Source of the DNA: Kaistia geumhonensis
Lineage (GTDB): Bacteria > Pseudomonadota > Alphaproteobacteria > Rhizobiales > Kaistiaceae
Assembly: GCF_030815145.1 (NCBI RefSeq)
Contig: NZ_JAUSWJ010000001.1
Coordinates: forward strand, 4,268,501 to 4,332,500
Reading direction: 5' to 3'
Length of the DNA: 64,000 bases
Shown here: positions 49,501 to 50,435 of the stretch, in pieces
How positions within the stretch are numbered: the stretch's first letter is position 1
Layout of the letters: the number at the start of each line of letters is the position of its first letter
Program-made: the position numbers and the translations under genes
The notes under the pieces: generated by a model
What the model saw: the letters and a program-made list of their open reading frames with translations, nothing else
What the model was told of the DNA's origin: nothing
The model's database searches: none

Positions 49501-50435
49501 GTCAGCCCGCCCGAGGACATCATGAACATGAGGCGGGGCGAAGAAGTCTGGTCCCCCGGAGAACCGCCCTCTCCAGCTGTTGCCCAAGAGGCGGGAGAGG
49601 GAGGTTCCGAGCCCGCAGCCGGAAGCTGGGCCCTTCCGGCGGAAAAGCTGCTCGCGAGGGAGGGTTGGGAGTGGGGTGCCTTGCGCGAGGCTTGAGAGGC
49701 GGGCGTCAGCCCCGACCCCGGCGACGCGCCCAGCTCGTCCGCCACCTGTTCCACATAACGGCGGAGGATCGGCGAGAGATAGGCGTCAACCACGGTGGTG
49801 TCGCCGCGCCCGACCAGCTTCATCAGCGGCGAGACCTCATGCGACACCGAGACCTGCGCGAAGCCGAGCCGCCGGGCGATCTCGGCGGCGACGCGTTCGT
49901 GCTCGGGATGGCGCCAGGCATGCATGAAGACGATGGCGACGGCGCGGATGCCGTCGGCGAGCGCGGCCGAGAGCGCCGCCTCGATCTCGGCCGCGTCGGG
50001 TGCCGCCTCGACCGTCCCGTCGACGCGGACGCGCTCGTTGACCTCGACGACACGCTCATAAAGCTGGTCGGGCTTGACGATCTTCTTGGAGAAGATGTCT
50101 GGCCGTGCCTGGTATCCGATCCTGAGCGCATCGCGGAAGCCGCGCGTGATCAGGAGCAGCGTTCGGTCGCCCTTTCGCTCGAGCAGCGCATTGGTGGCGA
50201 CGGTCGTCCCCATCTTGACCGTGCGCACGAGACCGGCAGGGATGGTCGTTCCGGGCTGGAGCCCCAGCAGATCGCGGATGCCCTGCACGGCCGCGTCGCG
50301 ATAGGCGCCTGGATTCTCCGAAAGCAGCTTGTGCGCGACGATCGATCCGTCCGGCCGCCGACCGACGATATCTGTAAACGTGCCGCCGCGGTCGATCCAG
50401 AAATCCCAGCCCTCGCCCCCGGTGTCGTGCGCCAT
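46584..50435 (-). CDS. 5-oxoprolinase-type HyuA-HyuB fusion
   Basis: A 1,283-aa protein. The HyuA-like half (residues 1 to about 710) has [32 protein letters not shown] and [16 protein letters not shown]; the HyuB-like half (about 790-1283) has [23 protein letters not shown] [30 protein letters not shown] and the C-terminal [11 protein letters not shown]. This full-length fusion is the architecture of ATP-dependent 5-oxoprolinase (glutathione/5-oxoproline use) and some hydantoinases. Residues about 238-300 are an Ala-Ser-Pro-rich insertion encoded by a palindromic repeat and interrupt the HyuA half just before [10 protein letters not shown]. Whether activity survives is not known. Confidence 0.9.
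49536..49724. repeat. Palindromic repeat inserted in-frame in the oxoprolinase gene
   Basis: About 189 bases (63 codons). One palindrome has arms GAACCGCCCTCTCC (49561-49574) and GGAGAGGGAGGTTC (49594-49607), 13 of 14 matching; a second has GCCGGAA (49618-49624) and TTCCGGC (49634-49640). The 3' part reads GGGAGGGTTGGGAGTGGGG, as in the intergenic repeat at 629-663. It is open in the oxoprolinase frame and its peptide is low complexity, unlike the flanking conserved protein. Confidence 0.65.

Follow-up and report, generated by a model that had tools for sequence, protein, structure and literature searches.

The host gene and its in-frame extra segment

The window analysed here, a stretch of 64,000 nucleotides, corresponds to positions 4268501-4332500 of the 4.59-Mb single-contig genome of Kaistia geumhonensis (G000) and harbors a long gene on its reverse strand which carries an extra in-frame segment. 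The features considered in the following are:

46584..50435 (-): HyuA/HyuB fusion gene of the hydantoinase/oxoprolinase family, 1283 aa (open reading frame and Pfam)
49545..49727 (-): in-frame extra segment of 61 codons (aa 237-297) that G013, the closest relative, lacks; pLDDT below 50 at aa 241-296
49565..49602 (-): decayed REP unit 1, 19.4 bits, 12 of 38 positions off the model consensus
49630..49676 (+): decayed REP unit 2, in opposite orientation, 14.5 bits, forming a 112-bp doublet with unit 1
49677..49727 (no strand assigned): 51 bp of the insert beyond the doublet, the remainder after the model matches; a further 20 bp lie at 49545-49564
628..665 (+): a further, intact copy of the family's REP unit within the window, 55.1 bits

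The encoded protein was identified as a member of the HyuA/HyuB ATP-dependent hydantoinase/oxoprolinase family by both its Pfam domains (Hydant_A_N at residues 12-190, Hydantoinase_A at 298-556, a weak Hydant_A_C match and Hydantoinase_B at 770-1282) and its fold (Foldseek matches to 9h03, 5l9w and 6yra at E 1e-44 or lower), its structurally solved relatives being N-methylhydantoinase (7hk5, 6yra), an ATP-dependent caprolactamase and subunits of acetophenone and acetone carboxylases. The insert locates between the N-terminal domain of HyuA and the core domain, a position which is referred to as site A. An earlier, sequence-only reading of the window had described an insert which is open in frame and whose conserved flanks would join smoothly without it, and this description was confirmed: the open reading frame is uninterrupted through the insert, the flanks match Hydant_A_N and Hydantoinase_A, and the closest relative G013 (about 94% identical, 28.5% difference at fourfold sites) possesses a continuous linker that lacks the 61 codons. 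The extra segment in the 1283-aa gene is thereby confirmed as real, but the limits given for it earlier (49536-49724, 63 codons) had to be revised, as its best placement is 49545-49727 with 61 codons. GC content by codon position is 0.67/0.79/0.69 within the insert versus 0.70/0.47/0.86 in the remaining gene.

The insert as part of a dispersed repeat family

Both palindromes formerly noticed within the insert were recovered as inverted repeats, one with 17-nt arms at 88% (49561-49577/49591-49607), the other with perfect 8-nt arms (49618-49625/49633-49640). A word was moreover said to be common to the insert and a repeat at 629-663, and indeed, with one mismatch allowed, the window contains GGGAGGGTTGGG two times (0.23 expected, a count of two being reached by 2 of 100 shuffles), whereby the repeat in question is the intact unit at 628-665. 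Genome-wide, GGGAGGGTTGGG was found at four places exactly and at 19 places with up to one mismatch, versus 10 for a reversed-pattern control. By itself the word is weak evidence; the REP profile described below is the stronger one.

A direct DNA search of the genome with the insert returned weak matches only (the runner-up covers 27 nt at E 4.4e-4), which is too little to decide on copy number, and hence a covariance model was needed. The genomic surroundings of the GGGAGGGTTGGG matches revealed hairpins of the form CCCTCTCCCGC-GAA-GCGGGGGAGGG with a G-rich tail, and the model was built from 16 units, none of them taken from the insert; a version with automatically derived structure (R1) was set aside in favor of model R2, whose structure was taken from the visible hairpin. 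Searching the genome with R2 at an E limit of 10 yielded 83 matches, and at a limit of 0.001 it yielded 38. When 14 matches which read a hairpin from its opposite strand are excluded and the second insert unit is added, the family amounts to 70 units in 42 clusters, and 19 of these clusters, the insert included, are doublets of 80-152 bp with their two units in -/+ order. The hairpin thus recurs at many places and often as inverted doublets, as is characteristic of dispersed palindromic (REP-like) genome repeats, and the insert possesses its units in this very arrangement. Two findings had been named earlier as contradicting a repeat origin, namely a repeat unique in the genome and an insert conserved as protein sequence across the family, and neither was obtained: the genome-wide search revealed a multi-copy family, and in the alignment with orthologues the insert was not found to be common as conserved protein sequence.

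Within the window, the model ranks the unit at 628-665 first and places both halves of the insert among the next four matches, in doublet order, and R2 recognises both units on opposite strands in doublet orientation although built without the insert. The window insert therefore holds both units of a dispersed repeat family, with 71 of its 183 nt falling outside the doublet. RNA folding of the insert was no better than that of shuffled sequences (z 0.53), the palindrome hence being decayed. Scanning the window against Rfam gave nothing at the insert; the single gathering-level match is an ordinary class A RNase P RNA at 52792-53191. As to the coding capacity of the repeat, the 18 doublets tested possess on average 4.3 open frames out of six, while random segments of the window reach 3.7 and shuffled sequences 3.0, so that in-frame landing is eased, but mildly.

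Structure and constraint of the inserted peptide

The structural model proposed earlier as a check was obtained with AlphaFold2 for the first 768 residues, using 66 homologues, and reached a mean pLDDT of 86, whereas residues 241-296, located between a helix (207-234) and a strand (301-305), remained below 50. Block means of 24-42 over aa 241-290 compare with 83 and 96 in the neighboring blocks 231-240 and 301-310, respectively, and the insert peptide is thus predicted to be a disordered linker.

Constraint on the peptide was evaluated by codon changes in two pairs of inserts, both from genes other than that of the window and both giving small counts. The ratio of nonsynonymous to synonymous changes was 6:4 versus 37:203 in the rest of the gene for the first pair (Fisher p 0.002) and 7:4 versus 114:308 for the second (Fisher p 0.013), while nucleotide divergence of both insert pairs was close to that of the remaining gene. 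Amino acids hence seem about as free to change as silent sites, for which reason the peptide looks like a weakly constrained, tolerated spacer, and a conserved function of it was rejected on the basis of these two pairs. In two Mesorhizobium pairs involving L084 (19:7 and 22:7), the inserts differ at 0.37-0.42 of their nucleotides and the remaining gene at 0.12, so that different insertions may be involved.

Occupation of the same linker in relatives

Among 26 family sequences, a long insert at site A was found in seven (the window, G008, G010, G015, G017, G019 and G020) and none in the other 19. A broader alignment comprised 125 rows representing 124 genes, as the window gene and L049 are identical, after six short ones had been dropped; at least 15 extra residues at site A were found in 20 rows, that is 19 genes. 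Judged by the author, 13 of these genes carry REP-type inserts, and those of the other six (L083, L123, L136, L141, L150, L216) are low-complexity or unclassified. Beyond the window, REP-type inserts hence occur in 12 homologues, distributed over family members, Mesorhizobium (L084, L087, L111), Aminobacter (L088) and Xanthobacteraceae (Pseudolabrys/Xanthobacteraceae MAGs L097 and L098).

In all six other genomes tested, the site-A insert was identified as a dispersed repeat of the respective genome, in four cases by searching with the insert DNA and in two by the model. The G020 insert has 11 other copies in its genome, each matching 150 or more of its 161 nt with 74-82% identity, and an alignment of six copies (five plus the insert itself) shows similarity ending at CCCCTCACCC and GGGTGAGGGG, the two ends of the element. 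Searches with their own insert DNA gave 68 matches for Mesorhizobium L087, 65 for G017 and 82 for Aminobacter L088, numbers in which the query copy is included and palindromes are counted on each strand. By the model, the in-gene unit of G010 (55.4 bits) is the best match in the entire G010 genome and that of G008 scores 39.6 bits, with weaker matches at site A in G015 (26.9 bits) and G019 (15.1 bits). One and the same HyuA linker thus holds REP-type inserts in other lineages, too.

Further occupied sites

Site A is not the only position at which this enzyme carries repeats. In a second loop, around aa 622, REP doublets were found in G002, G005 and G009 (25-43 bits), next to weak model matches in L098 (20.0 and 13.5 bits) and an assignment of L101 which is based on the look of the peptide only. 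A third loop around aa 879 (site C) is occupied by REP-type inserts in L087 and L088, with model matches of 18.2 and 10.6 bits; L097 (35 bits) and, by eye, L104 carry a single unit there. Altogether, six of 14 genus members possess a REP within the HyuA/HyuB gene. Repetitive peptides of another kind were also observed, namely tandem octapeptides at site C in G016, G018 and G022, SAEGATGK-like tandem repeats at site C (around aa 880), the loop which elsewhere takes up REPs, in L212, L213 and L214, and GGRGNP repeats in L149 from a Nostocaceae MAG.

A second enzyme, a urea-carboxylase-type protein, carries REP doublets in the linker between its CT_A_B and CT_C_D domains in G000, G013 and G008, and weak matches in G007, while no REP was found at this linker in G001, the one unoccupied member among the five of the genus that were compared (L172:1-2889, L241-L244, L246).

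Chance reading frames across repeats were scanned with Pfam in 16 further clusters of the 42, using 18 ORFs in which the repeat is flanked on either side by at least about 75 residues, a scope which leaves aside clusters with shorter flanks and the + frame of L186 (71 residues). Only L172 turned out to have domains before as well as after the repeat, so that among the HyuA/HyuB gene and the 18 scanned ORFs two genes of this genome, HyuA/HyuB and the urea-carboxylase-type one, have domains flanking a repeat. PhnJ (L186:504-2228:-) was considered as a third case and left uncounted, as only the downstream domain matches and, by eye, translation could begin at a TTG beyond the repeat; the REP doublet just before the PhnJ domain would accordingly provide N-terminal codons or, if the downstream TTG is the start, be extragenic. 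In G008, REP units were additionally observed at exact 191-bp steps (C1 585281-586082) and at multiples of 186 bp (C4 591361-591956), as if these were tandem arrays of REP-bearing repeats.

Mobilisation of the repeat

With an E limit of 0.001, 19 of 28 family genomes contain the repeat described by model R2, one genome having 128 unit matches. A Y1 (RAYT-type) transposase (PF01797) was found neither in G000 nor in 27 of the 28 family genomes, the one remaining genome giving a single match that is partial and contains a stop, while the same search was positive in five of 14 control genomes. A RAYT mobiliser was thus looked for without success. Repeats are hence abundant in bacteria without the usual REP transposase, and their mobiliser may be of another kind or may have been lost.

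Origin of the insert and alternative explanations

Taken together, it is very probable that a REP-like palindromic element resides in frame in a HyuA loop, has decayed by now and codes for a disordered, tolerated spacer. The suggested course of events assumes that a non-autonomous palindromic element of roughly 110-160 bp, consisting of two REP-like hairpin units in inverted order, inserts in frame into the loop between the N-terminal and core domains of HyuA. As this loop would tolerate changes in length and stop codons are frequently lacking in the GC-rich element, the enzyme would survive with a disordered Ala/Ser/Pro/Gly-rich spacer. In the genome studied here the element would later have decayed, whereby its hairpin was lost. 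Arrival of the insert by transposition or copying, continued activity of the enzyme and lack of a function of the peptide's own are inferred within this model. Counting against this explanation are the strong decay of the window copy, the 71 nt which the doublet does not cover, the weak direct DNA matches and the absence of a Y1 transposase from the genome.

The linker could also be a fast-evolving low-complexity loop whose DNA, being GC-rich and coding for Pro, Ser and Gly, is similar to REPs in composition. In Methanosarcina and relatives (L136, L141, L150), site A indeed holds charged inserts of low complexity that do not look like REPs, site C contains the tandem octapeptides in G016, G018 and G022, and the inserts of the window and of G015 fold no better than shuffles (z 0.5 and 0.2); however, 14 of the 16 inserts folded form strong hairpins (z -2.9 to -12.7), and the model scores of the in-gene units of G008 and G010 as well as the dispersed copies of the G017, G020 (160 bp), L087 and L088 inserts contradict such an explanation for these six genes; overall it is considered very improbable. 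The hairpins kept in those 14 inserts, together with the inter-domain position of both site A and the urea-carboxylase site, could in turn argue for a function at nucleic-acid level, e.g., a hairpin between the domains which delays the ribosome and gives the N-terminal domain time to fold. The strong folds are explained by the origin of the inserts alone, however, and as neither the window nor the G015 insert shows a fold excess and 19 of 26 family sequences have no insert at site A, this idea is regarded as highly unlikely.

Concerning the number of insertions, several independent occupations of site A are likely. A FastTree phylogeny of 52 rows, chosen by the author from the 125 and including all 13 site-A carriers, requires 12 changes by parsimony, whereas a single gain would need 25 losses; several internal supports of this tree are low (0.10-0.60). 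The in-gene copies resemble dispersed G000 copies with best z values of 14.4 (G010) and 8.1 (G000), as compared to 8.4-12.1 between G008 and G010 and 4.2-5.9 between G000 and G008 (two runs, shuffle z varying between runs). The G000, G008 and G010 inserts hence appear about as close or closer to dispersed copies than to each other, which fits separate insertions, and across genera most insert pairs have low z, with the Mesorhizobium and Aminobacter inserts being alike (z 8-9) and some others reaching about 6. These data speak against one ancient family-wide insertion followed by repeated loss and by overwriting through resident repeats (conversion). In favor of such a history, G000 and G008 have CTCCCAACCCTCCC and CTTTTCCGCC in common in the same order, G008 and G010 show some similarity immediately 5' of the element, and the G013 linker counts 14 residues versus 18-21 in other insert-free genus members, as after a deletion; overall it is judged rather unlikely. 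The difference between the window and its insert-free sister G013, from which the gene differs by 28.5% at fourfold sites, may reflect either a gain here or a loss in G013.

Tentatively, and with chances somewhat below even, the findings might be generalised such that in Hyphomicrobiales palindromic repeats commonly supply the material from which linkers between domains are made, whereby a few permissive loops, at least those of HyuA/HyuB and the urea-carboxylase-type protein, would be recolonised by each lineage's own repeat, spread by a non-RAYT mobiliser. With one loop, many lineages, different repeats and both empty and filled alleles, the system amounts to a natural replicated experiment on the conversion of selfish non-coding DNA into protein.

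Comparison with known systems

The REPIN/RAYT system comprises dispersed inverted doublets of REP units. The repeat described here shares this arrangement but, as compared to that system (Bertels and Rainey 2011, PMC3116915), has no cognate RAYT in G000, with the one partial, stop-containing match as sole counterpart in 28 family genomes. S. alaskensis and 'E. lithoralis' are alphaproteobacteria. According to Di Nocera et al. 2013 (PMC3733652), many bacteria, both free-living and other, possess REP monomers and dimers inside conserved genes, and intragenic REPs are named for S. alaskensis and 'E. lithoralis', among others; the novelty formerly implied for a free-living-type alphaproteobacterium is therefore not upheld, as palindromic repeats inside genes of free-living bacteria are an already published phenomenon. 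The same authors emphasise DNA repair and RNA-binding genes and report different REPs at about the same site of recB in Xanthomonas campestris and X. oryzae. In-frame palindromes are furthermore known (PMC2229807, PMC2759123) from Rickettsia, Wolbachia (by a cited title), Neisseria and enterobacteria. Rickettsia palindromic elements (RPEs) measure 105-146 bp and are found both in intergenic regions and in frame in conserved proteins (Delihas 2007, PMC2229807); the analogy drawn to them earlier stands for how the element works, namely as in-frame palindromic insert in a conserved protein, but not for membership; the host group is a different one. Enterobacterial RU repeats are likewise small mobile repeats which are read as parts of proteins (Delihas 2007, PMC2759123, abstract), yet belong to another host group, and that abstract reports no single site occupied in many lineages.

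At the level of titles and beginnings of abstracts, with most subscription papers outside this scope, no report on repeats in the HyuA/HyuB enzyme was found, and the main text of the RepRanger paper mentions neither 'Rhizobi' nor 'intragenic'. The intragenic GTAG/CGTC REPs are alike in residing inside conserved genes; neither strand of the model consensus contains a GTAG or CGTC tag, which places the repeat outside those superfamilies. As compared to these REPs, the difference lies in one linker being occupied across many genera, in addition to further sites in the same enzyme. As far as literature searches show, what is new is an occupation without RAYT, a second enzyme behaving alike, and a single linker which was repeatedly occupied, across genera, by lineage-specific repeats.
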